Part shown: piece after piece, positions 1-54,862 of the stretch | Position numbering within the stretch: the first letter of the stretch is position 1 | How the letters are laid out: each line of letters opens with the position of its first letter | Source of the DNA: a virus | IMG/VR virus record: IMGVR_UViG_3300042923_000857 | Location: 1 to 55,722 of that record | Length of the DNA: 55,722 nucleotides | Reading direction: 5' to 3' (one strand) | Notes under the pieces: model-generated | Told to the model about the DNA's origin: nothing | Database searches by the model: none | Seen by the model: the letters and a program-made list of their open reading frames with translations, nothing else | Made by a program: the position numbers and the translations under genes

Positions 1-127
1 CGGTCATTTAACTGAGGAGCAGTTAGAGGCGGTAAAGAAAGTAAATATGGACGACGATTCCTTTTTAGACGTTCCATTCATCTTTAATGGCCGTGAATTA
101 ACAAGGGAACAGAAAATTAAACTCCGA
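1..127. repeat. Terminal overlap, left copy (circular sequence)
   Basis: These 127 bases are identical to the last 127 of the window (55596-55722). The repressor reading frame is continuous when the two copies are merged, so the repeat is best read as the overlap left when a circular molecule was assembled. It is not a biological terminal repeat. A length of 127 is also a common assembler k-mer size. Confidence 0.93.
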
Positions 128-154
128 TCTGCTGCTCAATTATTTCTTGAGTAA
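1..154 (+). CDS. CI-like phage repressor, C-terminal part (gene starts at 55369)
   Basis: This is the end of the repressor gene that begins at 55369 and crosses the circular junction. The codon frame starts at base 2 and the stop TAA is at 152-154. Joined, the gene encodes 126 residues: an N-terminal Xre-type helix-turn-helix and a short C-terminal arm, with no LexA-type autoprotease domain. The tail seen here is acidic and ends in LFLE, typical of short Firmicute phage repressors. It would keep the lytic genes silent in a lysogen. See the 55369 entry for the DNA-binding part and the operators. Confidence 0.88.
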   Translation, partial: GHLTEEQLEAVKKVNMDDDSFLDVPFIFNGRELTREQKIKLRSAAQLFLE

Positions 155-296: not shown

Positions 297-524
297 ATGC
301 CACTTTCCGTTGGGAAGTGTCAGCTGCAAGGAATCCGCAAATCCAATGGGTGGACTCAAGATGAGCTATGTATTGAATTAAAACGAAAGCTCGGTATTGA
401 GTTAACCCCTCAAATGATTTCCCATTACGAGACGAACAAGAAGACGATGTCTCTTCTTAATCTGATGGCGATGTCGGAATTGTTTGAACGGAGCATGGAT
501 GACTTCTACCTAAGAAAGCGGTAG
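297..524 (+). CDS. Xre-family helix-turn-helix regulator
   Basis: This 75-residue DNA-binding protein lies downstream of the repressor on the same strand and is probably on the same transcript. The HTH spans about residues 17-60: WTQDELCIEL is the first helix and TPQMISHYETN the recognition helix. The end, SMDDFYLRKR, matches the usual tail of Cro/CI HTH domains. It is the DNA-binding domain alone, with no sensor or oligomerisation domain. The start ATG follows GGAGG at a spacing of 10. It is likely a second regulator of the lysogeny circuit; its target is not visible. Confidence 0.78.
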   Translation: MPLSVGKCQLQGIRKSNGWTQDELCIELKRKLGIELTPQMISHYETNKKTMSLLNLMAMSELFERSMDDFYLRKR

Positions 525-740: not shown

Positions 741-770
741 AAAAAAGAAAAAAACTGCCATTTGGCAGTT
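741..770 (-). terminator. Intrinsic terminator of the agr operon
   Basis: Read on the - strand, the near-perfect hairpin AACTGCCA/TGGCAGTT is followed by a T-rich run (T7 C T6). It sits just below the stop codon of the LytTR gene and closes the leftward agr transcription unit. Confidence 0.82.
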
Positions 771-785
771 TATAGTTCACAATGT

Positions 786-1166
786 TTAGTTTATAACGAT
801 CACTCGGTTTTCTTCGCGGGCCTTCGACACTACTTTCTTGTAGTACTTCTGAGCTAAGGTAATTTTTTTTGAATTTTTTTCGACTTCATATTCGAAGTAC
901 GCAATGGTATAAATACTGTCCAACCTCTTGATTTTCGGCATATGGACTACAATATTTCGATCAACTTTCTCGAAATCATATCCAGCCGCCTTGAGAGCTT
1001 CCACCCAGTAAGACAAGGAGCCCCCGATATAAAATCGATCCTCCAGCGTGTGAACGAAGACTCGTTTCTCATCAAACTCCAGAAAAAGGACATCCGAAGC
1101 ACCTACGTTCAAAGCCCCTTTTTTTCCTTCTTCATCTTTGGAGACGGACAATTGTAGTGGTAACAT
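786..1166 (-). CDS. LytTR DNA-binding regulator without receiver domain
   Basis: The 126-residue protein is made up almost entirely of a LytTR domain, the fold AgrA and related regulators use to bind DNA. Supporting segments are DVLFLEFDEKRVFVHT (beta strands) and the basic FEKVDRN region that corresponds to the F-x-x-x-HRS-x-x-V element of LytTR proteins. There is no CheY-like receiver, so a histidine kinase could not switch it by phosphorylation in the usual way. I chose the ATG at 1166, six bases after GGAGGG; an upstream ATG at 1181 would contain that ribosome site. It is the last gene of the agr operon and presumably its output. Stand-alone LytTR proteins of this kind are common in Paenibacillus. 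Confidence 0.82.
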   Translation of the reverse strand: MLPLQLSVSKDEEGKKGALNVGASDVLFLEFDEKRVFVHTLEDRFYIGGSLSYWVEALKAAGYDFEKVDRNIVVHMPKIKRLDSIYTIAYFEYEVEKNSKKITLAQKYYKKVVSKAREENRVIVIN

Positions 1167-1187
1167 ACCGATTCCCTCCATTGTTTT

Positions 1188-1313
1188 CTATTTCAACAAT
1201 TCTGCAGGAGTCTCATCTTGATGAATGTAAAGCCAGCTAGCCGTTGTTGTTGCGATTATTACCGCAATGAATCCTAACAATGTAGCGAGTTTATAGAACG
1301 CACGTTTTTTCAT
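1188..1313 (-). CDS. agrD: AgrD-like cyclic autoinducer peptide precursor
   Basis: This 41-residue peptide has the three parts of an AgrD: a basic, amphipathic N-terminal leader (MKKRAFYKLA...), a core around TASWLYIHQ and an acidic C-terminal recognition tail (DETPAELLK). By analogy with staphylococcal AgrD, a five-residue ring SWLYI (residues 26-30) would be closed by Ser26 instead of the usual Cys, giving a lactone rather than a thiolactone. The ATG overlaps the agrB stop (ATGA), and a strong GGAGAGGAGGTGAT lies upstream. The gene sits directly after agrB, as in known agr loci. Confidence 0.85.
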   Translation of the reverse strand: MKKRAFYKLATLLGFIAVIIATTTASWLYIHQDETPAELLK

Positions 1314-1828
1314 GTACTATCACCTCCTCTCCGGATTAACGTTGCACTCTGCACTAAGAATGCAATCGCCAATACCGGTGAGTCAAACAAGAAGTTGCTT
1401 GAGATGATGATGATCGTAATTAATTTAAGTACTGGATATCGTTTTTTCGGAATGCGTGATTCTAATTTTGAAGGAGCAAAAGCTAAAGCGAGGCATGCAG
1501 AAAGGCAATTCATAACATCAATCGTAGTTTGTCCGAAATCCGCAAAAGAGAAGCTAGTTAATCCTAAAGTGGATACCACTACACAAAGCGTACCCGACTT
1601 TAAGTGGAACCCACCTGAGAACTGTCTAAGGAGAGCGTATGATACAAGTGCGATGACAATTTCCGTTGTGCGGCCTGTAAAAGCGGAGATGATTAGCGAT
1701 ATTCCGATGATGAACCCGGTGTTAAGTAAAAATGAAATAGCATGCTTTAATACTGCAACACTACGCGGGTGGTCGGGATTGACAGATTTAATGCCTCTTG
1801 CGAGCTTCCACGCTAGTGAATCAATCAA
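1310..1828 (-). CDS. agrB: AgrB-like peptide-processing membrane protease
   Basis: The 172-residue multi-pass membrane protein belongs to the accessory gene regulator B family. AgrB cleaves the C-terminal tail of AgrD and cyclises the signal peptide at the membrane. The catalytic pair is visible as His75 and Cys82 in GGFHLKSGTLC, the same seven-residue spacing as H77/C84 of S. aureus AgrB. Hydrophobic segments follow at about 80-100, 104-120 and 135-160. Translation starts at TTG (1828), which overlaps the stop of the AgrC-like gene (TTGA) after GGAGG, so the two are translationally coupled. Confidence 0.92.
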   Translation of the reverse strand: MIDSLAWKLARGIKSVNPDHPRSVAVLKHAISFLLNTGFIIGISLIISAFTGRTTEIVIALVSYALLRQFSGGFHLKSGTLCVVVSTLGLTSFSFADFGQTTIDVMNCLSACLALAFAPSKLESRIPKKRYPVLKLITIIIISSNFLFDSPVLAIAFLVQSATLIRRGGDST

Positions 1829-2457
1829 TCTGCAGCATCCTCCTTCTTAAAGGAATAACGGAGGAATACCAGGAGAGCTAGAACGAATACAAGCAAGTTA
1901 AGGAAAACTTCTCTGAAATACATCATTGCTGCTAGAGCAACTATGAAAACAATAATGGACGAAATTACCGCGACTCGTTCCCATGAGAATTTTACGTTCT
2001 CAATAAAGTCGAACGTAAATCCATAGCCGAATCTATACAGAGTCCAACCGATCGAGAAGCCGACAACTCCCGTAAGAACTTGCACTGAGTATGCTTTCCA
2101 TAAAAACTCCTGCACTATATCTAACGAAAAGTATCCATCAGACAAATACAATATCCCATTCTGTATGATGCCAAGTCCCACATAACCAGCAACAGACATA
2201 AAGAACGATCCGATCAGCGGTATTCTAACGAAGATCATTAAGAAGAGTACGATTATCAGCAGGTTTATGATTGGCGCTATAAACGACAAAGATAGTTCTT
2301 CCCTAATTAAAAAATTCTGAAAATTGATGATGATAATCACGATTAAGGTGGACCATTTATAACGCATCAAGTCGTACCTAAAGATATAAAACAATATCGA
2401 AAACACGGCGATCCCTTCAAATATCGAGAAAAACATAAACCCAAGAAATTCACTCAT
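1825..2457 (-). CDS. AgrC-like membrane sensor lacking a kinase domain
   Basis: The 210 residues form six or seven hydrophobic segments and end in a short charged tail (RYSFKKEDAAD). The size and topology match the N-terminal sensor half of AgrC, which binds the cyclic peptide outside the cell. The HisKA/HATPase part, normally about 220 more residues, is absent. Its place between the HTH gene and agrB in the operon supports the assignment; sequence alone would only say polytopic membrane protein. It could be a kinase-less receptor, a decoy receptor or an exporter/immunity protein for the peptide. The ATG start follows GGGGAG. Confidence 0.6.
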   Translation of the reverse strand: MSEFLGFMFFSIFEGIAVFSILFYIFRYDLMRYKWSTLIVIIIINFQNFLIREELSLSFIAPIINLLIIVLFLMIFVRIPLIGSFFMSVAGYVGLGIIQNGILYLSDGYFSLDIVQEFLWKAYSVQVLTGVVGFSIGWTLYRFGYGFTFDFIENVKFSWERVAVISSIIVFIVALAAMMYFREVFLNLLVFVLALLVFLRYSFKKEDAAD

Positions 2458-2498
2458 GCCGGTGGGCTCCCCAAGTCAAGATAACTGCTAAGTAAGGT

Positions 2499-2807
2499 TT
2501 AATCACTCTTTACTCTTTTGCGCTGTTCCCGCCATTCGTCGATCTTATCGATATATTCTTCTATGTCATCTTCAAGCCAGAAGGGGAATTTACCTGCATG
2601 GAGCATGGGTTCAGGGAAAAACTCTGTCTTTCGCTTATGAATCATATTTCTCGGATCGATCCCAAGCATGATCGCGACTTCTTGATTTCCTATTAGCTTA
2701 ATCCCTTTGGTGCGTCCCTCGTATTTTTTGATCAACTCGTGAATAAGACGTCCGTCTTCCCCGCCGATCCGGTCAGCGAGTTCACGATATTTTTGAAGCT
2801 GATCCAA
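2499..2807 (-). CDS. Helix-turn-helix protein, first gene of the agr operon
   Basis: The 102-residue protein carries an excisionase/AlpA-like winged HTH at about residues 38-90: NQEVAIMLGIDPRNMIHKR is followed by a wing and FWLEDDIEEYIDK. Translation begins at TTG, six bases after AAGGGGGTG; no in-frame ATG or GTG fits as well. The predicted leader is very short because the -10 box ends only about 25 bases upstream of the start. As first gene of the signalling operon it is a candidate regulator of its own promoter and of the matching promoter at 54.87 kb. That role is inferred. Confidence 0.65.
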   Translation of the reverse strand: MDQLQKYRELADRIGGEDGRLIHELIKKYEGRTKGIKLIGNQEVAIMLGIDPRNMIHKRKTEFFPEPMLHAGKFPFWLEDDIEEYIDKIDEWREQRKRVKSD

Positions 2808-2819: not shown

Positions 2820-2887
2820 CTTACAAGAATCATTGTATGTCAAAGTCTTATGTATGTCAACATCATATATAAGGGAAACTCATATAT
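2820..2887 (-). promoter_or_regulatory. agr operon promoter with 17-bp tandem repeats
   Basis: On the - strand, -35 TTGACA (2855-2860), a 17-base spacer and -10 TACAAT (2832-2837) make a near-consensus promoter. The segment reads as tandem 17-base units: ATATATGAGTTTCCCTT (2871-2887), ATATATGATGTTGACAT (2854-2870) and ACATAAGACTTTGACAT (2837-2853). The -35 is part of the second unit, and the -10 begins with the last base of the third. The same units in the same phase occur at 54863-54896. Tandem sites over the -35 are typical of a regulator touching RNA polymerase, as lambda CII does. Confidence 0.78.
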
Positions 2888-3145: not shown

Positions 3146-5602
3146 TTATTTGTTTGATCTACGTTTCTTAATGTCGGCCAGTACTTCGGCTATGGGACGT
3201 CCATACTGCCTCGCATGGCGCTTGGTTAGGAAAGAGTTATCAATAGTGTCGTATCGGTTACCAATCAACGGGAGAGCGTCACAAACGAACGGAGCCTCGT
3301 ATTCTCCCTCGTGCAGCCAGCAAGCAATGTACTGATACTGCTTTGTTGCATCAAAAGCCTGCTGAGGTTCGGTAAATGTCTTACCCAGGTACGGCATTAA
3401 CTTTTTGTATGTGTCTACGTGCGTATTTTTGAACAAGTGCCAATTGATCGAAGCTGAAAGAAGGGTATCTGTGAACCCGGGGTATTCACTAAATGCGCTG
3501 AAATCGTGGAAGACAATCACCGGCGCCAGCCGATACTTCGGCCCTTCTCTTAGCATCCGCTTTGTAAAGTGTACGAGGCCCTTCGATAGGAATTGATGCG
3601 GTTCGTTTAGGACAAGGAACGTTCCCGAGCCTTTACCATCCTGCGCGAGCTTGATCAAAAATGTGAGCATGGCGATCCAATAACCAAGCGTCTCTTTAAT
3701 ACGCTCCGGCATAGGTATCCCATCGGGCATCCGGCAGCGAATGATAACTACCTTTCCTTCCTGTAACCAACGATACAGATCCATCTCAGGGTTAAAGCTC
3801 TGACAAAACATCGGCTTTAGAAACTCGCTGCCTACGATCTGGTTGAGCCTGCGGAGCACTGGTCCGTATATTTGCCCTTGCTTCCCCTCGCTCATCTTAT
3901 CGAAGTCTCGCCAAGTATCCATGTCGAAGACACTATCGAGTTCGGATATCTTCTTTTTCCTGAATGATGGCGAGAGGAACATTTCTTTCATGTCGGTAAA
4001 ATCTCCGTTCGTTGCTTTGGCAGCTTCCCGGGCAAAGTCTGCCGTCTGGAACTTATCCTCGTCGCCGTCCGAAAGTAGAAAGTCGGTTAGATACTCCGCG
4101 ATGACATCGGCAGCCACCCGAGTATCTTTCACATTTTGGAATATAGACTGCAGACCTAGATAAGGTGCATACGCAGTGTCGGCAAGGTTTATATCGATCA
4201 CGTCTTCAGGCGGAAGATGATCTCTTATCGCATCGGCCATGCCGCGGTGACCGTTACGCTCGTCTATGAAGTCTGGGATAACAGCTCCGATGCCGTGCTT
4301 GCGCTTAGCCTCAACAACCATGTTAATGACCGCTTGATCTTTCCCCATACGTGGGCTCCCGTTGACTCCTCGAGCCATATATAGCTTATCCGGACGATTC
4401 GTAGGGATGTGGATATCATAGGTCGCTCCCCGATCGGTAGCCGTCCCGGCCAGAATGCCCTTATCATTCAAAAATACTTTGGGTAACTCGATCTCTACTC
4501 GCCGATTAGATTGGAGTGCATTGGCGAACTCCAATTGCAATTCGGACGTTGGGAGCTGCTGGAGCTTGCCGAGTTCGTCGACGCTCATGATGTTTGGCGT
4601 CATTTCATTCATGCGCCAATTGCTCAAGTCGTTTAATGCTTCCTTGGATCGCAGATTGACCTTTACCATCTCCAAGCGGTTATCGTGGTACTTTCCTTTT
4701 TCAGTGACGACCCCGTACGCACCGGCAACAGATCGAGCAAGCATTTCCCTTTTGACCGGATCGACCGAGAAAACTGTATATCGAATCGACGTTTTGAACA
4801 CCGGGAGATTCCGCTTGTTTTTACTCAGCGGGGATAAATCACCGCTAACCAGCAATTCAGACCGATCGGGATTAATATGCTTTGGCCGCTCTACCTTTTG
4901 CCGTTGCCCTCCATTGTTGTGAAAGAATGACCGTTCGAGTCCGACTAGAACATCGTCGACCAATGACTTAGCTTCAAAGAATAGATGAGTTACCCCGTTC
5001 GCGACATGGCGCAGGATCCTAAGTGGATCGAATCCAGCACGGTACGGCACGCCCCCCTTATCCCATTGTTCCCAAGCATAATCGGCTAGCTTCTTCCACT
5101 TCCCCCGCGGTACCGTCTCTGTCTTAATGAAAATAGAAACTGCTTCATCTTCCGATAACTCATTCGTGACCCCGAGCACGCTCCGGACCGGAATCGTTTG
5201 TTCCGAGTGGTCGGCATCGAGAGAGAACATATCATGTCGCTTATATTTGAGAGCATAAAGCTCCGTCTGCTCACCAGTCGGGAAGTCGAACGTATCGGCA
5301 ACTTCGAGAGTCGACTTCCTCCATTGGTCATGGTTTCTAAACTTGATCCGGAACGCGTCCGCAAACTCTGCTGGCATAGCACAATAATACTCGATAGTCT
5401 GAGAGGTAAGCTTTGTTATCCACCAGAAATCCGGGGCGGCCTTAACAATGATCTTAAATCCTTCCCTTCTTGGTTTATGACGGACCGAGAATAATTCATA
5501 AAGCGCTCGCTGAAAGTTTCGGGAGGACGAATTAAGGACGGTGTGATGCGGGATTATTCGGAATACGACATAGGACGGCTTAAGACGTTCAATGAAATGC
5601 AC
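3146..5602 (-). CDS. VirD4/HerA-like P-loop ATPase (conjugation or translocation type)
   Basis: The 818-residue protein has a C-terminal half resembling the coupling/assembly ATPases of type IV secretion (TraG/VirD4, VirB4, HerA). The Walker A is at 412-423 (GVNGSPRMGKDQ, Asp where Thr/Ser is usual). A degenerate Walker B is at 661-671 (TFLVLNEPHQF, Asn-Glu instead of Asp-Glu), and APVIVFHDF follows. The N-terminal 200 residues recall the surface-exposed region of such ATPases (EYYCAMPAEF). No clear transmembrane helix is seen. The GTG start lies eight bases after GGGAGG. Neighbours are an M23 peptidase and small membrane proteins, a set like a reduced transfer machine. The atypical P-loop leaves activity uncertain. 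Confidence 0.72.
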   Translation of the reverse strand: MHFIERLKPSYVVFRIIPHHTVLNSSSRNFQRALYELFSVRHKPRREGFKIIVKAAPDFWWITKLTSQTIEYYCAMPAEFADAFRIKFRNHDQWRKSTLEVADTFDFPTGEQTELYALKYKRHDMFSLDADHSEQTIPVRSVLGVTNELSEDEAVSIFIKTETVPRGKWKKLADYAWEQWDKGGVPYRAGFDPLRILRHVANGVTHLFFEAKSLVDDVLVGLERSFFHNNGGQRQKVERPKHINPDRSELLVSGDLSPLSKNKRNLPVFKTSIRYTVFSVDPVKREMLARSVAGAYGVVTEKGKYHDNRLEMVKVNLRSKEALNDLSNWRMNEMTPNIMSVDELGKLQQLPTSELQLEFANALQSNRRVEIELPKVFLNDKGILAGTATDRGATYDIHIPTNRPDKLYMARGVNGSPRMGKDQAVINMVVEAKRKHGIGAVIPDFIDERNGHRGMADAIRDHLPPEDVIDINLADTAYAPYLGLQSIFQNVKDTRVAADVIAEYLTDFLLSDGDEDKFQTADFAREAAKATNGDFTDMKEMFLSPSFRKKKISELDSVFDMDTWRDFDKMSEGKQGQIYGPVLRRLNQIVGSEFLKPMFCQSFNPEMDLYRWLQEGKVVIIRCRMPDGIPMPERIKETLGYWIAMLTFLIKLAQDGKGSGTFLVLNEPHQFLSKGLVHFTKRMLREGPKYRLAPVIVFHDFSAFSEYPGFTDTLLSASINWHLFKNTHVDTYKKLMPYLGKTFTEPQQAFDATKQYQYIACWLHEGEYEAPFVCDALPLIGNRYDTIDNSFLTKRHARQYGRPIAEVLADIKKRRSNK

Positions 5603-7776: not shown

Positions 7777-8457
7777 ATGAAAAGAAAGATTGTCTTATCG
7801 CTGATCATTGTTTTAGTACTAATCTCATCCGTTTCTTTCGGAGCTTTCGCTGCAACAAAAATGAAGGTGATTGTAAACGGAAAAACATCCACAGTTGATC
7901 CGATTGTTATCAAAGGAGTGACCTATGTTCCACTTAGAGCTGCAGCCGACATGCTAGGAGCAAAGGTTAATTTTGACGCTTCCACTAACACTGTTAGAAT
8001 TACAGGTTCGGGCTCTGAAACATCAAGCAGCCCGGCATCAAAACCAAAGTCCTACAATGTCGACGTAACAGTCAATAGCGGACCAATGATTCTAAAAATA
8101 TCAAAGGTTACGTTAGACCCTGCTTACAAGCAGTACTCTTTTGAATCTGCGAGCCACAATGCTTTAGTCTTTGATGTCACTGTAGAAAATACCTCTACGG
8201 ATAAATTGACTTGGTATGTAGATCAAACTCAGCTAGTTTTGAACACGAAGGAGCAAATCGAGAGTGGATTAATGACAGAGGATCGAATTTCTTCCGATTT
8301 CAATGGGAAGGTAATAAAAAAGGGGCAAATTGCGTATGAGGTTAAAAACAGTACGCTCGAGGAAGTTAAAAATATAAGGTTGCTCATTAAATATGTGATA
8401 GACGCGAACTTCGATACTGTTGCGGAAGACACAGAAACAGAAATCACCCTAGAATAA
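7777..8457 (+). CDS. Secreted stalk-domain protein with DUF4352-like domain
   Basis: The 226-residue protein begins with a clear Sec signal peptide (MKRKIVLSLIIVLVLISSV...AFA, cleavage near residue 27). A copper amine oxidase N-terminal ('stalk') domain follows (GVTYVPLRAAADMLGA, then STNTVRI). A serine-rich linker leads to a beta-rich domain like the DUF4352/telokin-like family (VFDVTVENTS). Stalk domains are abundant in Paenibacillus secreted proteins. Carried on a prophage and read from its own strand, it is a candidate lysogenic-conversion protein. The lysin gene across the terminator ends in the same domain type. Start ATG 7777 has GGGGAAA ahead. Confidence 0.84.
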   Translation: MKRKIVLSLIIVLVLISSVSFGAFAATKMKVIVNGKTSTVDPIVIKGVTYVPLRAAADMLGAKVNFDASTNTVRITGSGSETSSSPASKPKSYNVDVTVNSGPMILKISKVTLDPAYKQYSFESASHNALVFDVTVENTSTDKLTWYVDQTQLVLNTKEQIESGLMTEDRISSDFNGKVIKKGQIAYEVKNSTLEEVKNIRLLIKYVIDANFDTVAEDTETEITLE

Positions 8458-8461
8458 AAAT

Positions 8462-8499
8462 AATCCCCGCTCTGACCCACTTGGGCCAAGGCGGGGATT
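8462..8499. terminator. Bidirectional terminator between convergent genes
   Basis: AATCCCCGC/GCGGGGATT stem with a 20-base loop. Leftward RNA continues into TTATTTTTATT, and rightward RNA into a weaker T-rich stretch. It ends the late operon (leftward) and the secreted-protein gene (rightward). Confidence 0.85.
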
Positions 8500-8502
8500 T
8501 CA

Positions 8503-10068
8503 TTAATCCTTATCGATAAACACAGTATTACTATCCTTATCCCATTTAACTTTTGCCCCTAAAGCTTCGGCGACCGCTCGAGCTGGTGTAAAGGTTACGC
8601 CATTCTCTACATATCCACTCGGTACCTTTACTCCATTCACAATGACATTTATCTCCACTTTCACTTCCTCTTCCTCCTTCCCGTTCCAGAACAACCCTTC
8701 TGCATAAGCTTCGTTGAAGTCGACATCAACTCCGCCTAAAGATGTGCTGTTCTTGTACTGCCACATGTCCGCATGCTGGCTTTTCTTTCCGTCGCTCCAA
8801 GCGTAGGTCTGCCAATAATATTGACAAGCATCGCGGTTAGCCATTTCCTCGATCACTTCATAATGGCCGTAAACGCCGACTTGATATCCTTGGAGCTCCG
8901 CTTGTGCCGCCCTCAAATAAGTCTCGATTGCATCGTAGTCCTTTGCTTGTACGTCGTAATCAACGGCCATGAAGATCGCGGATCCCGTTGGTTGGGCGAT
9001 TGCTTTAGCTTCGGCAAGTGCCGCTTTGCCGTCGACTTTACCGTTTGCAGCACCGCCAGCCGGGCGATTGGTGGTAAGCTGAAACACAGATGCTAGGCGC
9101 AAACCAGCATCTTCGATCGCAACTACTTCTTTCCGGGTTAGCCGTTTCCAAGCATAAGTTTCCGGTACCAGATACCGAACGGCGAACTTGGCGCCTTTCT
9201 CTGCTACCGCCTTTGCCGTTGCTGCCGTTAAAGGCTTCGCGCAATCGATTCCGAATAAAGCCTTTTTAACCGGAAATAGAACGGCGGGATCGAACTTAAT
9301 TGCAATTCCATGATGGATGTTACGTTGGACTTGCTTTTCACTCATATCGGCGACGTGGTAATCACGCTTGATATCCAGTGCATCGAGTAGCTGTTGGTTA
9401 TTCGTTGCGAGTGTAGCCGATCCGCCCCCGTCTCCACTAGCTGAGTTAACATATCCGAAATGTTCCGCCGCGACGCCCGACTCCAGCGCACTAAGACCGC
9501 GATCGGTTTCGCCTCTGCCGTCGACAAGAAGAATGCCTAACGTGCCGTCCGCGTTCGTGCCGAACACAATGCGAGATTGGACGGCGGCGACATCCGCAGG
9601 CGTCTTTTCCTGAGTCCGTAGCGCACTTAAGGCTTTTCCACCTTCGGTTATAGTCGGGACAACAACGACGCCCCAATCCAGCCCCTCCGGGCTCTCTTGC
9701 CGACCAATCCCGAAGCGTCCGTCTTTCCGGTAAAAATGCGGACGCTGTTCCGTTTTTCCCGCTACATCCGAAAAGATGATTTTACCCATTTGAAACGTCT
9801 TTCCCAGCAACGAACCGTTTGCTTCATTGAAAAATGGGGCATTCACGACAATCCAGTTACCGCCATGTTTTTTCACGAGGTCGGCCAATATCGCGGAAGC
9901 AGCTTTGCCTTTCGCAATTACGAGCTCCGTCTGAATGACAGCTGCAGGCGGGATATCTAGGACCCGGATATCTGTCCACCCATTTGCCTTAGAAAAAGAA
10001 CCGCTATAGTCCAGCGGCCCCTCTTCAAGCTTATTGGCTTTTACTCGAACGCGAGTATGTTTAATCAT
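8503..10068 (-). CDS. Modular lysin: phosphodiester glycosidase-like, DUF1906 and stalk domains
   Basis: The 521-residue last gene of the late operon directly follows the holin (4-base overlap), the place of an endolysin. Three parts are visible. Residues 1-260 resemble the NAGPA phosphodiester-glycosidase family (NWIVVNAPFFNEANG, LLVDGRGETDRGLS). Residues 270-450 resemble the DUF1906/glycoside hydrolase-like fold (FGIDCAKPL, FMAVDYD, VGVYGHYEV, MWQYKN). The C-terminal 60 form a stalk domain (GVTFTPARAVAEALGA). The middle domain is the likely wall hydrolase. The N-terminal domain is often found with phage wall or tail proteins and may act on teichoic-acid-like phosphodiesters. Confidence 0.85.
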   Translation of the reverse strand: MIKHTRVRVKANKLEEGPLDYSGSFSKANGWTDIRVLDIPPAAVIQTELVIAKGKAASAILADLVKKHGGNWIVVNAPFFNEANGSLLGKTFQMGKIIFSDVAGKTEQRPHFYRKDGRFGIGRQESPEGLDWGVVVVPTITEGGKALSALRTQEKTPADVAAVQSRIVFGTNADGTLGILLVDGRGETDRGLSALESGVAAEHFGYVNSASGDGGGSATLATNNQQLLDALDIKRDYHVADMSEKQVQRNIHHGIAIKFDPAVLFPVKKALFGIDCAKPLTAATAKAVAEKGAKFAVRYLVPETYAWKRLTRKEVVAIEDAGLRLASVFQLTTNRPAGGAANGKVDGKAALAEAKAIAQPTGSAIFMAVDYDVQAKDYDAIETYLRAAQAELQGYQVGVYGHYEVIEEMANRDACQYYWQTYAWSDGKKSQHADMWQYKNSTSLGGVDVDFNEAYAEGLFWNGKEEEEVKVEINVIVNGVKVPSGYVENGVTFTPARAVAEALGAKVKWDKDSNTVFIDKD

Positions 10069-32699: not shown

Positions 32700-33389
32700 T
32701 TAAGAGGAAGTGTTTTCGGCTGGCGCTTCTTCCTTAGGCAACTCCATTCGGATCTCGAAATCGATCCCCTCGCCTTGTAGTTTGTAACGGTGAATGTTGG
32801 TTCTTGAAGGATACGTGCTCACTTCCTTTTTTTGAAGCCAGTCCGTGCCGGTTGCCACGTCCCCTAGAACTTCGGTAGCGACTTCTGGTGTTACATGCGG
32901 ATTCTTTGATGTCGAGAATATACTCCAGCTTGCCTCTACCCACGCTTCGATAACCACATTTGCATCGACCCCGTATAATTCCCGTGACAACGAACATAAC
33001 CGATGTACTGCCCAAGCCGACTTTGACATTGATTTTGGTGGGGACTTCAAAAGCTTACGTTTCTTTCCTGCTCGCACCCCTTCCCTTTTGAAAATTGTCA
33101 CATCGAGGTCTTTATCCAGACCTCCGCCATTCGCGCAGAAGAAAGTCAACTTATCATCACTATCGGCTGTATGCCATTCGTTTGTCCAAGACGCTCCACC
33201 GTCCTCTGCTATGTCAGCCACAACCAACCGGGCAAGGTATGTTGTTGAAGTCCACCCATGGATGTTTACCTTTATGTCCACATCTAGACCGTGTTCATCT
33301 TTCATTACCTTTCTTAGGGCGATCACTGCCCCGGCGATTGTCCGGACGGACGGAACTGGTATCGGCTTAGCTTTTCGCTTGGCTGTCAT
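32700..33389 (-). CDS. Protein of unknown function co-translated with the acyltransferase
   Basis: The 229-residue protein has a basic N-terminus (TAKRKAKPIPVPSVRTIAGAV) and no membrane segment or known motif that I can recognise. Its ATG overlaps the acyltransferase stop (ATGA) and GGAGGAATG lies ahead, so the two are translationally coupled and form one moron operon. The body has several Trp residues and alternates beta and helix (WTSTTYLARLVVADI, SAWAVHRLCSLSRELYGVD). Confidence 0.66.
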   Translation of the reverse strand: MTAKRKAKPIPVPSVRTIAGAVIALRKVMKDEHGLDVDIKVNIHGWTSTTYLARLVVADIAEDGGASWTNEWHTADSDDKLTFFCANGGGLDKDLDVTIFKREGVRAGKKRKLLKSPPKSMSKSAWAVHRLCSLSRELYGVDANVVIEAWVEASWSIFSTSKNPHVTPEVATEVLGDVATGTDWLQKKEVSTYPSRTNIHRYKLQGEGIDFEIRMELPKEEAPAENTSS

Positions 33390-34486
33390 TTAATCATTCC
33401 TCCTTTTAATAATGCTTTGTAGTTATCGCCTACGAATGCACCAGGCTCCTTGTACGATCTCGTGGTCCGGATGCCACCAACGAGATACTTACCAAGCGGA
33501 TGCTTATTGACGATGTGAACTGTAACGATCGATGCGATAACCGACGATATGAAAAGCATTGCGACCCCGTAGCCTCCGAGATAAATTCCCACAACGCCGA
33601 GAGCTTTGTTCGTTGCTCGCATGAAGAAGAAATGAAGCAGGTAGATCCCGAACGAATACTTGCTAACGAACCCTAATATGGCGGGTTGTCGCTTGAGCCG
33701 TGTGAAGGCGAGGAATAGGGCTAGGATCATCGTGACCGTGAATACCACCATATCCATACGCTTTGAGCCGTAGGGCATGACGTCGAACGTGTTGACGTAC
33801 AACACGATTCCAAGTGCGATAACTGGAGTTGTCAAAACGATAACCGGATGCGCCTTTAGCATCTGAATGAATCGTTGATAGTTCTTCCCGCAGTAATACG
33901 CCAGTGCGAAATAGAATAACCAGCCGATACAAGGAACCCAATACCCGCCTTCCCATAGATATACAACCGAATCGTTAGGCGGTGAGCTGAGATTAAAGAA
34001 AGCCAGATACGCCAAGTTTATGATGAACGAGCCGGTTAATATGATCGGAGCGGATACCTTGCTAAGATACTTGATGAATAAGCGATGGAGAATATAGAAC
34101 TGGAGAATGACGAGAATGAACCATGGACCATGGATGCTGCCGAGTAGGTTGTATGTAAAATCTTTGAGCAGAAGCGGTATGTTGTTGTAATTGGGGACGA
34201 ACGAATTGAAAAAGGAAATGAACACGAACGGCAGGAGGATCGGCAGCACTCGCTTCTTAAAGAAGGAGCCCGGTAATCGGTCTGGATAGCTTCGAGACAA
34301 TATTAGTTCAGAGATGAAGACGAATGTCGGTGTACCGAAGGCGAGGATTCCGACGATGGTGAGTGCCATTTGATTTGTTGTGTCATAGAAATCGTTAGCG
34401 TAAAGAATGGAATGCAGGAGAACCACACATAAGCATGCAATTGACCTTATTGAATTGATTTCTTTAATAACCACTTTGTCCGCCAT
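33386..34486 (-). CDS. Membrane acyltransferase, OafA/acyltransferase-3 family
   Basis: The 366-residue protein has about ten transmembrane helices. The family start is clear: EINSIRSIACLCVVLLHSIL, with the catalytic-type His in LLHS, then GTPTFVFISELILSRSY and FFKKRVLPILLPFVFISFF with conserved Arg. Such enzymes move acetyl or other acyl groups onto surface glycans or lipids. In a prophage this typically changes the host surface and blocks reinfection. It has its own promoter (34555-34583). The start is ATG 34486 or a GTG nine bases upstream that is closer to GGAG. Confidence 0.9.
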   Translation of the reverse strand: MADKVVIKEINSIRSIACLCVVLLHSILYANDFYDTTNQMALTIVGILAFGTPTFVFISELILSRSYPDRLPGSFFKKRVLPILLPFVFISFFNSFVPNYNNIPLLLKDFTYNLLGSIHGPWFILVILQFYILHRLFIKYLSKVSAPIILTGSFIINLAYLAFFNLSSPPNDSVVYLWEGGYWVPCIGWLFYFALAYYCGKNYQRFIQMLKAHPVIVLTTPVIALGIVLYVNTFDVMPYGSKRMDMVVFTVTMILALFLAFTRLKRQPAILGFVSKYSFGIYLLHFFFMRATNKALGVVGIYLGGYGVAMLFISSVIASIVTVHIVNKHPLGKYLVGGIRTTRSYKEPGAFVGDNYKALLKGGMIK

Positions 34487-34518
34487 GAGAAACACACAAC
34501 TCCTTTTAATATAAAAAT

Positions 34519-34583
34519 GAATCACAGCAAGGGTTTAACCTTTGTGTGATTCAAAGTATATTACATTCGTAATGTATTTTCAA
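34519..34583 (-). promoter_or_regulatory. Promoter and 5' hairpin of the acyltransferase operon
   Basis: The -35 TTGAAA (34578-34583), a 17-base spacer and -10 TATACT (34555-34560) form a strong promoter. The spacer holds the dyad TACATT-ACG-AATGTA-like sequence. The predicted RNA begins at once with a hairpin, GAATCACA/TGTGATTC with AAGG/CCTT inside (34519-34552), which could stabilise or regulate the mRNA. The same dyad lies beside the integrase gene and could instead be part of attP. Confidence 0.75.
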
Positions 34584-34592: not shown

Positions 34593-34615
34593 AAAAAAGG
34601 CGCTCAATGAGCACC
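34593..34615 (-). terminator. Integrase terminator
   Basis: - strand GGTGCTC-ATT-GAGCGCC followed by TTTTTT, overlapping the integrase stop codon. Confidence 0.87.
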
Positions 34616-36210
34616 TAAAGGTACGTATCTACTACTACCTCGCCGTACTTATCAACTTCGATCCGCTTCACGCAAAGCATAAGCAGTGGACGAGTTTTCT
34701 CAACATCTGAATATGATGGTAACGCCGTGAGGCCGTCAGCAGATATTTTCGCGTCTCTGACGACTCGGGAAACATCTAACACCCTACGCTCATCAGTGGC
34801 GATCTGTGCTAGCTTTTTGTCCGCCTCTGTTATCTCCATCTCGTATTGTTCTTTTTCGAATTCGTACTGAGCGCCATCAAGATCGCCAAGCATGTTTTGA
34901 CGACGAATTTCGAAAAGCAACTTCCGGTTGTCCTCGATGCGTTTTTCGAGCTTACGCCTATCTTTCTCGTAGTTTCCGCCCGGCATCCTGAATTCCATAT
35001 CTCTGGAACCTCTTTCGAACTCCTTGACCCCTATTCTTACTTGGCGTAAGATTCCATCGATCAGCTCGTCCCGCATTTCAGCATAAGGAATCCATTTGTC
35101 ATTCGAGCATCCGGCCTCTCCAGCTCTCCGTCGACGACTACACATCAAGTAACGATACTCTTTACCAAGACGGTTCTTTGTCTTACTTGCCATAGTTACA
35201 ATGGCAGAACCACATTCCTTACAAAAAATCATCTTAGCAAACACGTTGACGTACGCTCGTCTACCACCTCTTCTTCCTCCGCCGCGCTCCATTCTTATAT
35301 CTTGAGCAATTTCCCATCGCTCAAGCGGGATGACGACCGGGAACCAAACCTTCTCAGACCATTCCCATTTTTCTCTAGGCTGCTTAACGAGTTTTTTTCG
35401 CCTCTTCATCAAATCGGTAAGATCATCGTACATCAATTCAGTTTTGTATCTGCCGTGGACGTTGTAACCAGTATAAATAGGATTTTCAAGTATCGCCTGC
35501 ACAGCGGTTATTGTCCATACCCCGCCTTTATATGCTGGATACTTGATCCCTTCCGGATTGTCGCCGTTCAAATAGTTTACGATCAGCTTATCGCCAAACC
35601 CGTAATCGATTTTTAGGCTAAATATCAATTCGACTAACTCCGCTTTTCCCTTGATTCGTTCAAGTGATTTTCGTTTTCCGCTTTCTTGTAGCGGATCGTC
35701 TACCAGTATCTTGCTAAGACCGAATGGTGGTATGGTTCCGATGTAGTTACCGAATTTTAAAGAAGAAGTTCTGATGCCGCGACTGGAAGATCCGCTTATG
35801 TCCGAACTTGTATTTTGGTTAATGACCGACTTAATTCCGAATAGCAATTCGTCATCCTTCTTGGCCGAGTCGTATCCGTCTTCAATTGAGACCACTCGAA
35901 TCTTAAGTGCATTAACAAGGATTCTTTTCAGTGTAATCGCATCTAGTGCATCCCGGCTAAAACGGGAAAGAGAGGCGAACCATATTGAACGGACCTCGCC
36001 TCTCTTTGCGTCATCTATCATGCGCTTTACGTCTGTACGTTCAACGATTGTTGTTGCTGAATCCTTATCGTGATAAAAGTCATCTGTTCCAAGTTGTATG
36101 CCTTCACGAGCAGCTGTTTCATGTATGAATGACTCCTGATGCTCTGGACTGTCCCTCTGCGAATCTTGGTTAGTTGAAACCCGGACGTAACCTTTATCCT
36201 TTTGTATCAT
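34615..36210 (-). CDS. Large serine recombinase (phage integrase)
   Basis: The 531-residue protein integrates the phage by strand exchange through a serine-linked intermediate. The N-terminal resolvase domain has Ser12 in YVRVSTNQDSQR, then SLSRFSRDALD. The recombinase domain has GNYIGTIPPFG and AVQAILENPIYTGYN. The zinc ribbon is CKECGSAIVTM...CSRRRRAGEAGC. A coiled coil follows (residues 415-475, RRKLEKRIEDNRKLLFEI). The ATG overlaps the previous gene by 17 bases. It lies between early and late regions, not next to the repressor. Confidence 0.95.
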   Translation of the reverse strand: MIQKDKGYVRVSTNQDSQRDSPEHQESFIHETAAREGIQLGTDDFYHDKDSATTIVERTDVKRMIDDAKRGEVRSIWFASLSRFSRDALDAITLKRILVNALKIRVVSIEDGYDSAKKDDELLFGIKSVINQNTSSDISGSSSRGIRTSSLKFGNYIGTIPPFGLSKILVDDPLQESGKRKSLERIKGKAELVELIFSLKIDYGFGDKLIVNYLNGDNPEGIKYPAYKGGVWTITAVQAILENPIYTGYNVHGRYKTELMYDDLTDLMKRRKKLVKQPREKWEWSEKVWFPVVIPLERWEIAQDIRMERGGGRRGGRRAYVNVFAKMIFCKECGSAIVTMASKTKNRLGKEYRYLMCSRRRRAGEAGCSNDKWIPYAEMRDELIDGILRQVRIGVKEFERGSRDMEFRMPGGNYEKDRRKLEKRIEDNRKLLFEIRRQNMLGDLDGAQYEFEKEQYEMEITEADKKLAQIATDERRVLDVSRVVRDAKISADGLTALPSYSDVEKTRPLLMLCVKRIEVDKYGEVVVDTYL

Positions 36211-39227: not shown

Positions 39228-41756
39228 TTAAAAATTTTTGGTTAAGTCCTCTAGATCGAAAAGCGTTGGCATGTCGACCATACTCTCCGCAGCTCTCAGG
39301 TACCCGACTCCATCGCGGAAATAATCGCTGTTCAATTCGATACCGTAACCGCGGCGCCCCATCTTAACCGCTTGGACCGGTACCGTCATAAGGCCGCCGA
39401 ACGGATCGAGCACGACGTCGCCCTTGTTCGAATACCGGTTGATGATCCGCTCTACGATATCGATTTGTAACGGACATACATGCATTTGAAGCCGCTTCTG
39501 ATTCTGCTGGGTGTTAAGGGTCTTCATCCGATTGATGTTGTCCCACACTTCGTCCGACCAGCTACCCGGGGCGACCACCATGAAAGATGCCGGAAGCTTG
39601 CCGTCCTTATCGAGTCGTTTGGCGAGCTCGACATGCTGTCTGTAGTTGTAGAAGGAACGGCGTGAGAACTTCCGATATGCGGCTTGCAGTTTGCTGACCG
39701 GAAGAGATGCGAGTTCTTCCTTTGCGACTAACCGATCCCCGCTCGAGCGCCAGAATCCATGAGCATCGATCTGCCATTGAGCCCGGGTATATTCTTCCTT
39801 GCTCTTAGTGACCGGATCGTCTGCATAAGCCTTGCCGGTGTTCGACGGGAGCCTCCGGAAGAGAAGGATGTATTCCGGGCAACCGACGCCCATCTTCGTT
39901 CCGTCCTTGCATTGCTCCGTCCAGCCGAGGCGATACGTTTGGTTGTTCTCGCGGACCACGTCGGTTATTACCGTGATCATTCCGAAGTATTGGAAGCCGT
40001 GTTGCGTATAATGGTTGATGCAAATTGCATGGAATGGTTCGATGGTCGGCATTCCGGTACCCGTCGCATTTCCGAATAGCACCCGGTCCTTCACATGACA
40101 AGCGAATACCCTTCCCGGCCTAAGCACTCGCAACAGTTGCGGTGTCAGGTGGTCCATCTGTTCGAAGAACCGTGCGGTATCCTCGTTATGGCCGAAATCG
40201 TTGTACGATGGCGTGTATTCGTAATGGTTAGAGAACGGGATCGAAGTATGGATAAGGTCGACGCTGTTCTCTTCCATCGCGGCCGTCTCGAGCACGCAAT
40301 CATTATTCACGGCCGTATATAGCTCCGTTTCAATTTTCACTCTCTCAACTCCAATGCTTCGTGCTAACTTATCGATGATCGACGTTCCGGAAAGGCCGTA
40401 TTTCTTAATGATCTCGACCATTTTGCCGACCAAGTAATCATGCTGCTTCCACTTCTCAAGCAACGTTTTAAGGATCTCTCGCTCGCTTTCCATATAGATG
40501 AAATGGATTTGGCAAGCATAGAGCTGCAGGAAGCGGTGTATCCGGTGAACCGCCTGAATCGTATCGTTGAAGGAGTAGTCGATCCCGGCGAATATCGCGA
40601 TATGGCTTTGCTGGAGGTTGGCGCCAGACCCGAGTATTTCAGGCTTACTCAAAATGACGGTGTATTTCCTTGCCTTCCAATCCAGCAGCCGTTGCTCCTT
40701 CTCTTCGTGAGTAAGGCTGCCGTAAATCGATGCGACCGAGATACCCGCAGACTTTAAAGCACTCTCGATCTCGTCCTGCTCGTCGTTGAGATGGCACCAT
40801 ATGACGATCTGTTCCGGTAGGTTAGCCTTAACGAGCTCCATGACATTTGCCACACGCTGCCCTATGCTATCGCGCTTCTCCCGCGCCGCATCCTTTAATC
40901 CCATGGCCGCGTCGCGCAGGAGAAGCATCTGGCCATCTCGTTCGGATCCCGCCTCGGAATGATCAACGGCGAGCTCATGATACTGTAGATCCAATTTCGG
41001 TAAGTCATATCCTTCATCGGAGTATCCGAGGTCTGAAGGCTTGGTGATGAACAATGCCCAGGTCGATACCCATAACCAGAACTCATCTTCTTTGTGCGGG
41101 TAGAGCGTCAGATTATTGGCCTTCGTGCTGTCCCTCTGGAAGAAGCGTGTTAGCGCCTGACCAGTATCCATCACCTCTAGATACCCGGCGTAATGGATGA
41201 GCTCCTTATATTTGTTCGGGCTTGGCGTCGCCGTACAAACGAGCTTGAACGGTACGCCTTCGAACTTATCGAGGAACGTTTGATAGGTCTTGGTCCCGTA
41301 TCCGCGCAGAACAGAAGCTTCATCGAGCGAACATGCGGTAAAGTAGTTCGGGTCGATGTCACCGTCCCGTACCCGCTCGTAGTTGGTGAGAAGGATCCTT
41401 CCCTTGGCCGCCTTAACTTCCGCCATCGTCCGGACATACTCAGGAGCATCCATCCCCAACAGGTTGACGGCATCGTTAACGAACTCCTGTTTTACTCCAA
41501 GGGGCATGACGATTAGTGCTTGACCTCCTATCCGGTCCGTAACGATGCGGCAATACTCGAGCTGTTGAAGCGTCTTACCGAGCCCGAACTTTGCAAATAT
41601 CGCCCGTCTGCCCCCGCGAACCCCCCATACGACTCCATCCCGTTGATGGGGCTTTAATATCGGATGGACTTCATCGGGTGATATTTCGAAACCCGATTCC
41701 TTGGCGATTACTATCTTAGATTTCAGGAATTCGAGATAAGAACTGATTTGTATCAC
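39228..41756 (-). CDS. SNF2-type helicase fused to an N4/N6 DNA methyltransferase
   Basis: The 842-residue fusion has a SNF2 helicase at residues 30-450: GLGKT (58-62), DEAS (145-148), TATPSPN, GSGANLQQ and QAVHRIHR. A beta-class amino-methyltransferase occupies about 475-830, with a catalytic motif IV written SIPF (505-508) instead of DPPY and motif I DPFGG (784-788). No nuclease domain is seen, so this is not a complete restriction enzyme. Phage helicase-methylase fusions such as P1 DarB protect DNA from restriction. The start is unclear: GTG 41756 lies inside GAGGTGAT, which looks like the ribosome site itself. Confidence 0.9.
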   Translation of the reverse strand: MIQISSYLEFLKSKIVIAKESGFEISPDEVHPILKPHQRDGVVWGVRGGRRAIFAKFGLGKTLQQLEYCRIVTDRIGGQALIVMPLGVKQEFVNDAVNLLGMDAPEYVRTMAEVKAAKGRILLTNYERVRDGDIDPNYFTACSLDEASVLRGYGTKTYQTFLDKFEGVPFKLVCTATPSPNKYKELIHYAGYLEVMDTGQALTRFFQRDSTKANNLTLYPHKEDEFWLWVSTWALFITKPSDLGYSDEGYDLPKLDLQYHELAVDHSEAGSERDGQMLLLRDAAMGLKDAAREKRDSIGQRVANVMELVKANLPEQIVIWCHLNDEQDEIESALKSAGISVASIYGSLTHEEKEQRLLDWKARKYTVILSKPEILGSGANLQQSHIAIFAGIDYSFNDTIQAVHRIHRFLQLYACQIHFIYMESEREILKTLLEKWKQHDYLVGKMVEIIKKYGLSGTSIIDKLARSIGVERVKIETELYTAVNNDCVLETAAMEENSVDLIHTSIPFSNHYEYTPSYNDFGHNEDTARFFEQMDHLTPQLLRVLRPGRVFACHVKDRVLFGNATGTGMPTIEPFHAICINHYTQHGFQYFGMITVITDVVRENNQTYRLGWTEQCKDGTKMGVGCPEYILLFRRLPSNTGKAYADDPVTKSKEEYTRAQWQIDAHGFWRSSGDRLVAKEELASLPVSKLQAAYRKFSRRSFYNYRQHVELAKRLDKDGKLPASFMVVAPGSWSDEVWDNINRMKTLNTQQNQKRLQMHVCPLQIDIVERIINRYSNKGDVVLDPFGGLMTVPVQAVKMGRRGYGIELNSDYFRDGVGYLRAAESMVDMPTLFDLEDLTKNF

Positions 41757-41766
41757 CTCATTTCTA

Positions 41767-41778
41767 AACCTATAGGTT
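41767..41778. repeat. 12-bp perfect palindrome between methyltransferase genes
   Basis: AACCTATAGGTT lies in the short gap between the two methyltransferase genes. It could be an operator or a chance palindrome. Confidence 0.4.
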
Positions 41779-41781
41779 GAT

Positions 41782-43407
41782 TTACTGATTGATCACATCT
41801 AGAATTCTGCATCCGATCTCGAATGCAAGGATAGACGTCACACCGTTTCCAGCCATTTTATAAAGCTGCGAATCGCTTATGCCTTCCTTGATTCCGGTCC
41901 GTTGGATCAGGGATAGGACTTGCTCAGTAATGTCATTTCGAGTCATATCGATCTGTTCGATTAACTCTGGGTGACGGAAAAGCTTGAGTTTTACATACCA
42001 CCAATCGGGATAGCTCTGAAGACGGAAACATTCGAGTGGGGTGAGTTTGCGGATGCGATGTCCGACGACAGCGTGATTATTGTCTTGATAACTGTTCGAT
42101 GTTAATGTCGGTGCAATGTCATGCGTTCCGCCCTTGTTATAACCTCGCGGTCGTTGGTAGATAAAGTTTCCGCTTGAACCGCCGCCTCCACCTTTCAAGC
42201 AATGAGATAACCCGTCATCTCTTGTTTCAAATCCGCGGCTATGAATAAGGCCGCTCTCAACATCAACGATAACTACCCCATGTAAATCTTGCGCCGTCAG
42301 GGTAAACATTGGCTCTCCAGGTTCCTTCATTCTTCGACCGTTCTGGCGTTTCTCCATGCGGTCAGGAGTCAGTACAGCTCTTGGTTCCTCAACGACCATC
42401 GTTCTTCTGGCCTTAATGTTTGGATTATCATTGATGCCTTTCTGATACCCTGCATCAAGGCAGTAGGCAATGCCTTCACCATTTATGCTGTATTGAGTTG
42501 GCTTGTGATCAATAATCTTAGTAACTGCATTCCCATGCTGCGCAAGTTGTGTTGGGGCAATCCCATCAGGAGCATATATCTTACCTGTACCGCCGCTGTC
42601 ACAATCTAGTTGACCGGCAATAACGATTTTCGGTTCATTTCCTTTACTTTGAGCTCTAAGGGTTGGAGCGATTTCGCTCAGCTTATTAGATTTATTTCTA
42701 CCCTGATCATCAAGTATCTTCGGTTCCTGCCTACCGCCCTGCATCGTGGAAAGTGCCGGTGCTACCCCCCCAGTTCCGTAGACTCGGTTCCATTGATCTT
42801 TTCCGGGGAGTGCGAGTCTTCCAATGACATCAATAGTTTTGCTGTTTTCTCGTCCGAAAGGAAATATTTTTCCGGCACTGCATCCTCTAAGACTTGCGAC
42901 AATGAATATCCGCTCTCGGTTTTGAGGAACGTAGGCCGCGCTGTTAAGCACTTGCCATTCTCCCACGTACCCCAACTCATCCAATGTGCCGAGGATAATT
43001 CCGAGCGTTCTTCCTCCGTCATGGTTTCTAAGTCCGTCCACATTTTCAAGGAGTAGAAATTCGGGTCGGAGAACAGATGCGAACCGGACGACTTCAAAAA
43101 AGAGAGTACCTCTAGTCTGGTCTGCAAATCCTTCACGTTTTCCAGCAATGCTGAAAGTTTGGCATGGAAATCCGGCAGCGATAAGCCGTACGCCTCCGTC
43201 GATTCGTTCTCCGAGTTCCCGAATAGATCCATCTGATACATCTCTGATGTCATATGCGCTCCATAACCTCCTTTCAGGATCGTGTAGCACCTCATAAGCT
43301 TGATGAGCGTATTTATCCCACTCGACGTAACCAACACACTCCATACCCGCCTGTGTGAGTCCATGCCCTATACCGCTTATGCCGGCGAATAGTTCAAGGA
43401 ACTTCAT
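41782..43407 (-). CDS. Cytosine-5 DNA methyltransferase
   Basis: The 541-residue enzyme has motif I at LFAGISGIGHGL (residues 6-17), catalytic PCQ at 81-83, ENV at 121-123, QNRER at 162-166 and the C-terminal KMAGNGVTSILAFEIG. Residues 225-470 form a long target-recognition region. There is no partner nuclease, so it is an orphan enzyme likely used against host restriction or for gene control. The N-terminal 550 bases also encode a second protein-like frame (42762-43253). Confidence 0.95.
   Translation of the reverse strand: MKFLELFAGISGIGHGLTQAGMECVGYVEWDKYAHQAYEVLHDPERRLWSAYDIRDVSDGSIRELGERIDGGVRLIAAGFPCQTFSIAGKREGFADQTRGTLFFEVVRFASVLRPEFLLLENVDGLRNHDGGRTLGIILGTLDELGYVGEWQVLNSAAYVPQNRERIFIVASLRGCSAGKIFPFGRENSKTIDVIGRLALPGKDQWNRVYGTGGVAPALSTMQGGRQEPKILDDQGRNKSNKLSEIAPTLRAQSKGNEPKIVIAGQLDCDSGGTGKIYAPDGIAPTQLAQHGNAVTKIIDHKPTQYSINGEGIAYCLDAGYQKGINDNPNIKARRTMVVEEPRAVLTPDRMEKRQNGRRMKEPGEPMFTLTAQDLHGVVIVDVESGLIHSRGFETRDDGLSHCLKGGGGGSSGNFIYQRPRGYNKGGTHDIAPTLTSNSYQDNNHAVVGHRIRKLTPLECFRLQSYPDWWYVKLKLFRHPELIEQIDMTRNDITEQVLSLIQRTGIKEGISDSQLYKMAGNGVTSILAFEIGCRILDVINQ
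42762..43253 (-). CDS. Protein-like frame nested inside the cytosine methyltransferase gene
   Basis: A 163-codon frame (MTSEMYQMDLFGNSENESTE...) lies wholly within the methyltransferase gene, shifted in frame. A perfect AAAGGAGG (43267-43274) lies 13 bases before its ATG and a GGAG five bases before it. The methyltransferase frame spends two AGG arginine codons there. The region YGLSLPDFHAKLSALLE is the shifted reading of the conserved methyltransferase PCQ motif, so part of its familiar look is forced. The later part (SWGTWENGKCLTA, LSQVLEDAVPEKYFLS) also looks protein-like. It is a plausible dual-coding gene, not proven. Confidence 0.5.
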   Translation of the reverse strand: MTSEMYQMDLFGNSENESTEAYGLSLPDFHAKLSALLENVKDLQTRLEVLSFLKSSGSHLFSDPNFYSLKMWTDLETMTEEERSELSSAHWMSWGTWENGKCLTARPTFLKTESGYSLSQVLEDAVPEKYFLSDEKTAKLLMSLEDSHSPEKINGTESTELGG

Positions 43408-54832: not shown

Positions 54833-54862
54833 ATGCGACCTTCTTCCCATAAATAAAACTCG

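Follow-up and report, generated by a model that had tools for sequence, protein, structure and literature searches.

What would a temperate phage do with an operon for agr-type peptide signalling? The question is raised by the IMG/VR virus record IMGVR_UViG_3300042923_000857, whose 55,722 bases were analysed at full length (the window), and whose positions 786-2807 carry five leftward genes for a helix-turn-helix (HTH) protein, a membrane protein, the peptidase AgrB, an AgrD-like pro-peptide and a LytTR protein. We read the locus, with a probability of roughly 0.6, as a phage-borne, kinase-free agr-type signalling operon that lies in the immunity region and is coupled, through an operator that both carry, to a promoter pointing at the phage repressor; such a virus may choose between dormancy and killing by a signal of its own making. 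The five genes, the pairing of operators, the strict association of the operator dyad with the HTH gene, selection on the operon and swapping of its alleles are all seen in the sequence.

All five open reading frames of the original prediction are intact at their coordinates, and the operon reads as follows:

2499-2807, minus strand: gene 1 (HTH), winged-HTH/excisionase-like DNA-binding protein of 102 aa with a TTG start (phrog_4745/66/597)
1825-2457, minus strand: gene 2 (TM), seven-helix, AgrC-receptor-like, kinase-less membrane protein of 210 aa (PHROG 15604, E 2.7e-7)
1310-1828, minus strand: gene 3, AgrB peptidase with His75 and Cys82 (PF04647, 5e-13; phrog_10353, 1.7e-34)
1188-1313, minus strand: gene 4, AgrD-like pro-peptide (NCBIfam TIGR04223, 29.5 bits)
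786-1181, minus strand: gene 5, receiver-less LytTR DNA-binding protein of 131 aa (PF04397, 34.2 bits)
2832-2860, minus strand: operon promoter TTGACA-17-TACAAT, a near-consensus pattern match
752-771, minus strand: intrinsic terminator of the operon, a pattern match

AgrB, AgrD and LytTR each scored above the curated cut-offs of Pfam and NCBIfam (23 bits for Pfam AgrB, against which the window protein reached 49 bits; 22.6 bits for PF04397; 19 bits for TIGR04223), and profile matches bore out the identities proposed earlier for all five products (HTH, kinase-less AgrC-like protein, AgrB with His75/Cys82, AgrD-like peptide, LytTR regulator). The two catalytic AgrB residues are invariant across 14 aligned phage AgrBs. 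As in agr systems, the AgrD combines a Cys or Ser ring residue with an acidic, Pro-containing tail, its predicted Ser-lactone ring Ser26-Ile30 (SWLYI) being followed by HQDETPAELLK. Ten residues ahead of the tail Pro (P-10), serine is found here, in the matched AgrD peptides of HTH-type cassettes and in C. difficile L003 (relatives are given by L numbers); L052 has Cys there. Two agr hallmarks are absent according to Pfam: where agr systems have an AgrC with a histidine kinase, the membrane protein of 210 aa lacks any kinase domain, and where they have a receiver-bearing AgrA response regulator, the LytTR protein is a LytTR domain alone. The single promoter and single terminator claimed for the operon were both found, but the number of such pattern matches there is not above that in shuffles.

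That the kinase-less protein is a peptide-sensor domain is best supported by Chengkuizengella L033, where a 458-aa HATPase_c protein has this membrane domain as its N-terminus (residues 4-205, E 5.4e-39); this fusion of membrane domain and kinase (8367-9743) adjoins AgrB and AgrD. By eye, a receiver-type regulator lies just upstream in L033 (7724-8323), a possible ancestral two-component form. The AlphaFold2 model of the window's membrane protein has seven long helices, with a mean predicted local distance difference test score (pLDDT) of 89.

Next to the operon lies an immunity module of an XRE protein, a repressor, a cro-like gene and a small gene, wB, which adjoins the operon in the window, L059-L063, L085-L087 and L089. 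Because the first and last 127 bp overlap exactly (bases 1-127 are identical to 55596-55722), the record closes into a circle of about 55.6 kb, and the repressor gene crosses its junction:

55369-55722, plus strand: CI-like XRE repressor, first part, crossing the record junction (phrog_8, 3e-17)
1-154, plus strand: CI-like repressor, last part (1-127 repeats 55596-55722)
54967-55179, minus strand: cro-like HTH gene (phrog_4583 'transcriptional repressor'), conserved in place
54629-54850, minus strand: wB, a small immunity-module gene conserved in relatives
297-524, plus strand: XRE protein between the agr operon and the repressor
55217-55231, no strand assigned: putative repressor operator CCTTAGAATCTAAGG, unlike the HTH dyad

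Further putative repressor operators were seen at 55253-55267 and 54958-54972, in a class that is weak, with 4 matches against 1.84 expected.

A different element, a 19-bp dyad, stands at two promoters, that of the operon and one directed at the repressor, which resembles a promoter for repressor establishment (PRE):

2868-2886, minus strand: first copy of the dyad operator, TATATGAGTTTCCCTTATA, within the HTH-agr promoter region
2851-2869, minus strand: operator-like copy overlapping the operon -35, in tandem at a 17-bp period
2834-2852, minus strand: weaker operator-like copy in the operon -35/-10 spacer
54873-54901, plus strand: PRE-like repressor-directed promoter TTGACG-17-TATAAT, antisense to the cro-like gene, with 11/12 consensus matches
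54881-54899, plus strand: dyad operator copy TATATGAGTTTCACTTATA in the spacer of the PRE-like promoter
54864-54882, plus strand: second copy at the PRE-like promoter, overlapping its -35 element

The PRE-like promoter is the best plus-strand promoter match in its stretch and reads through the cro-like gene in antisense, in the direction of the repressor; no terminator match intervenes. The pattern TATATGAGTTTC[AC]CTTATA has two matches in the window, both at these promoters, where 0.03 are expected; L008/L059 carry a different dyad, CATACGGTTTTACCGTATG, at the same two places (0.00 expected), and the pairing recurs in L060, L062 and L063. Scored with a leave-one-out matrix, the operon dyad was the best or second-best site of the locus near the HTH start in 21/21 intact loci, and exceeded the shuffled maximum in 20 of these 21 (the window's own scored 15.8 against 16.0). 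The matrix placed a second site at the repressor-directed promoter in 10/10 loci with the full module, 3,460-3,520 bases from the HTH start, and in none of the other 11 HTH-agr loci, which comprise L064 (module replaced), L088, L090-L093, L097 and L098 (no module) and L094-L096 (module diverged or partial). The PRE-like promoters themselves are well kept, with a -35 of TTGAC[GT] in 9/10 and a -10 of TATA[AC]T in 10/10. In the window the sites are repeated in tandem every 17 bp, and when the whole record is scored with a matrix that includes the window's own site, the top five hits all fall at these two promoters. In each of the ten full-module loci, the operator links the signal genes to the repressor circuit, the connection expected of lysis-lysogeny communication.

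No convincing motif common to cassette and immunity region was found in HTH-less phages, judged against nulls made by shuffling 50-bp blocks. In L018, TAATAAAGCCTCGGAATAA and TAAAAAAGCCTCGGAATAA, upstream of the cassette and at about 2832, match at 18/19 positions. A further motif, AGGAAAATNCTTC, was noticed by eye upstream of some agr promoters and is not general.

Which protein recognises the dyad? The HTH protein is the likely binder on sequence grounds, since the dyad is kept in L064 and L090 and is absent from 31 HTH-less cassettes and 26 repressor loci. In L064 the operon dyad persists with the repressor and wB replaced or gone and no similar cro gene, and chromosomal L090, which has none of LytTR, repressor, cro-like gene and XRE protein, retains it. 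In 0/31 HTH-less cassettes do the 250 bases before the membrane gene (before agrB in L016) contain the dyad, the best score being 11.5. Thirty loci with repressor homologues were scanned as well: the four beside an HTH-agr operon have the dyad (25-27.5 bits), and the other 26, including L112, L114 and L115 from the L095, L094 and L096 loci, score at most 11.6. The remaining candidates were rejected as binders: the repressor, wB and the cro-like protein by L064; the XRE protein at 297-524 by seven HTH loci that keep the dyad with no complete adjoining XRE homologue (L088, which has a 43-aa partial match 1.1 kb upstream, L090-L093, L097 and L098); and LytTR by L090 together with the 31 HTH-less cassettes. 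The first gene, missed as such by the original prediction, is probably the key regulator, with an operator that is present in the repressor-aimed promoter too.

These observations bear on a quite improbable alternative, in which the locus is a LytTR regulatory system (LRS) of the HdrRM/BrsRM type with a peptide ligand, LytTR binding both promoters and the membrane protein inhibiting LytTR. The pairing of a receiver-less LytTR with a kinase-less membrane protein in one operon is indeed that of LRS, as described in PMC6193735, and a Pfam LytTR match is present in 13/14 aligned cassette members. The operator, however, is a dyad rather than a pair of 9-bp direct repeats 12 bp apart, which in LRS lie directly ahead of the -35; neither these 9-12-9 repeats nor an excess of a 21-bp period (z -2.6) was found in the 19 upstream regions, and L090 keeps the dyad without LytTR, whereas the 31 HTH-less cassettes lack it, though most have LytTR. 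The window also differs from LRS in having AgrBD signal genes and an inverted gene order, with the membrane gene upstream.

If the HTH protein does bind the dyad, it could act in either direction. We propose it as a repressor because the site fills the -35/-10 spacer. That it is instead a CII-like activator of the repressor-directed promoter and of its own operon is unlikely: the promoter is placed like lambda PRE, and MerR-type proteins, which the HTH matches weakly in structure, as it does RacA and BldC, activate from spacer sites (in Foldseek its nearest folds were the excisionase RdfS, RacA and BldC, none significant), yet the -35 and -10 elements are near consensus with 17-18 bp spacers, so that no activator is needed. 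MerR promoters have spacers of 19-20 bp.

The association of the HTH gene with the operon extends well beyond the window. HTH homologues in six viral contigs (42-48% identity) each head the same operon, which is complete with all five genes in 6/6. Homologues were also present in 16/394 Paenibacillaceae genomes, two of them as remnants; the 14 intact loci have TM, AgrB and AgrD in 14/14 and LytTR in 13/14. As the 6/6 viral contigs and 14/14 intact Paenibacillaceae loci keep it, this linkage is not a matter of chance. More widely, a search of 50,697 named phage records gave 7 AgrB matches, from the Brevibacillus phages Abouo and Davies and the P. larvae phages Harrison and Paisley. In the three of these that were inspected, AgrB is accompanied by a membrane protein, a small peptide and one further gene, the fourth, which aligns with the window's LytTR. 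Phage agr genes had been described as known mainly from C. difficile phage phiCDHM1, a statement that calls for correction, as they are already annotated in Abouo, Davies, Harrison and Paisley. No match to the membrane protein or the HTH was obtained by tblastn against named phages.

Further copies of the cassette occur in viral contigs and in GTDB genomes, some of them chromosomal. In Brevibacillus reuszeri L027 the cassette lies on the host chromosome, beside genes that we take to be spoVK/hflX-like, and the surroundings of L088, L090-L094, L097 and L098 are metabolic, enzyme or other host-type genes as judged by eye from sequence. Such HTH-agr and HTH-less cassettes beside metabolic or housekeeping genes would suit a host-directed moron, by which a prophage would produce or detect an agr peptide so as to steer or track the host's agr behaviour, apart from its own decision; the authors of the phiCDHM1 study propose host-mediated responses (PMC3901668). 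We consider this somewhat unlikely for the window, given an operator common to the operon and the repressor-directed promoter. Chromosomal loci carry it only at the HTH promoter.

The virus itself is a temperate siphophage of the Paenibacillus type, and the window encodes a terminase, a major head protein and a large serine recombinase (Pfam and PHROG scans):

34615-36210, minus strand: large serine recombinase (integrase) (phrog_95, 2.9e-75; Pfam Resolvase/Recombinase)

The end overlap, as of a circularly permuted or closed record, and the cassette's place by the immunity region, kept in relatives, both speak against a chimera. Other genes seen in passing include an 818-aa protein at 3146-5602 (phrog_5156, no Pfam match), by eye like conjugation or HerA-type ATPases and odd in a siphophage; a membrane acyltransferase-like protein, again by eye, at 33386-34525 adjoining the serine recombinase, possible cell-surface-modifying cargo; and, at 39228-43407, what look like a helicase/methyltransferase fusion and then a C5 cytosine methyltransferase gene.

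Is the operon in use? Ratios of nonsynonymous to synonymous substitution rates (dN/dS) for its genes were 0.03-0.33 between close relatives where dS could be estimated, many pairs being saturated. A decaying remnant without function, of which the degenerate copies L099 and L084 and the loss of LytTR from some host copies are reminiscent, is scarcely credible against genes intact in the window and in 6/6 viral relatives and dN/dS well below 1.

The alleles also move. Between L062 and L063, identity is 93-94% for HTH, 54-69% for TM-AgrB-AgrD, 81-93% for LytTR and 95-100% for most of the immunity region, and L062 and L064 have an agr allele in common and different immunity regions. The TM-AgrB-AgrD block is exchanged between near-identical phages, in a manner that resembles agr specificity groups. 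The ring Ser is kept and the rest varies: beside SWLYI in the window, the predicted rings are SLIFV, SLVFV, SPVFV, SFWYI, SVLYL, SWGYI, SWAFI, SWVFV, SVFFV, SWLYV, SYVFI and SYAFI. The L087 peptide has its tail Pro replaced by Ser and was missed by the search pattern.

How might such a circuit work? An HTH dimer would bind the dyad and act as a repressor at both promoters, that of its own operon and the repressor-directed one. AgrD would be cleaved and cyclised by AgrB to a Ser-lactone peptide with the ring SWLYI, which the seven-helix protein may sense; having no kinase, this protein would signal by direct contact, without phosphorylation, the simplest way being to hold or release the LytTR protein, which has no receiver. 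Either LytTR or the sensor could then change the level or action of the HTH protein, the expression of the operon and hence the level of the repressor, so that peptide concentration would bias lysogeny against lysis, with a sign that could go either way. The earlier idea that the operon measures host or lysogen density is narrowed by the operator at the repressor-directed promoter to a more specific, lysis-lysogeny role. Taken to its full extent, the proposal is tentative, at slightly less than even odds: a phage system that decides between lysis and lysogeny by an agr-type cyclic lactone, with a kinase-free receptor, LytTR output and a dedicated HTH protein, its operator copied from a host-type agr cassette into the repressor-establishment promoter, its pherotypes swapped independently of immunity, and with possible cross-talk to host-chromosome copies.

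Several results weigh against this signalling circuit. By profile the membrane protein shows no similarity to the sensor domains of clostridial AgrC, and its model found no convincing fold match in the PDB, where sequence searches likewise gave no useful matches; some membrane proteins of this kind also lack a linked LytTR, in L023-L025, L034, L035, L038 and L090. The AlphaFold2 model of the HTH is weak (pLDDT 64), a low-confidence winged HTH. Upstream of the operon there are no direct repeats of the LRS type, and no LytTR target site came to light. The name PRE-like is a comparison with lambda. Finally, the operator wiring is not universal, since L095 and L096 (repressors 37-40% identical) lack the second operator.

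Compared with staphylococcal-type agrBDCA, the window has the same AgrB, AgrD, LytTR output domain and a hypervariable middle like that of specificity groups, but no histidine kinase, no receiver domain and an extra HTH gene. With Arbitrium (AimR-AimP-AimX) it has in common a phage-made peptide proposed to bias lysogeny. Arbitrium uses a linear peptide that is taken up and recognised by a receptor in the cytoplasm; in the window the peptide would be processed by AgrB and met by a proposed membrane receptor, with different regulators. None of the cassette proteins scanned is an AimR-type receptor, the remaining phage proteins having had no dedicated search.

The cassettes of Abouo, Davies and Harrison have the order membrane protein-AgrB-AgrD-LytTR, with AgrB 31-40% identical, and differ in lacking the HTH gene and the dyad operator; their AgrD has no Ser or Cys at the ring position and a Lys one residue on. 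A second phage AgrD type was seen in L005, L006, L007, L010, L012, L013, L011, L015 and L018, with no Ser or Cys ten residues before the tail Pro and a conserved Lys one residue later (pattern xK[hydrophobic]x[hydrophobic]G[SN]), and may yield a linear or lactam peptide; among 12 AgrDs scanned, TIGR04223 matched only the 4 of Ser type.

The C. difficile phage phiCDHM1 (agr3) likewise pairs AgrB and AgrD in a temperate phage. Its AgrC has a kinase-type ATPase domain and there is no response regulator (PMC3901668), in contrast to the kinase-less membrane protein, LytTR, HTH and operator at the repressor-directed promoter of the window. The full cassette with its LytTR regulator, as first suggested for a temperate phage of Paenibacillus type, is distinct from the classic three-gene phiCDHM1 set. 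The available portion of the same paper notes AgrB, AgrD and kinase-less membrane proteins (putative AgrC) in Davies, Emery and Abouo, with no mention there of a LytTR gene in these cassettes, and a 2025 review still states that agr-carrying phages lack a response regulator (PMC11945551). Neither the cassette LytTR gene nor the link between operator and repressor was found in the accessible parts of the open-access literature, including PMC3901668, PMC4168068, PMC7790227, PMC11945551 and PMC6193735.

For the phage agr genes, known since 2014, no output has been known; the cassette in the window carries an output protein of its own. Together with an operator at the repressor-directed promoter, this would open a phage decision under the control of a cyclic peptide to direct tests, and the cassette would be an example from nature of agr-type signalling that does without a histidine kinase.

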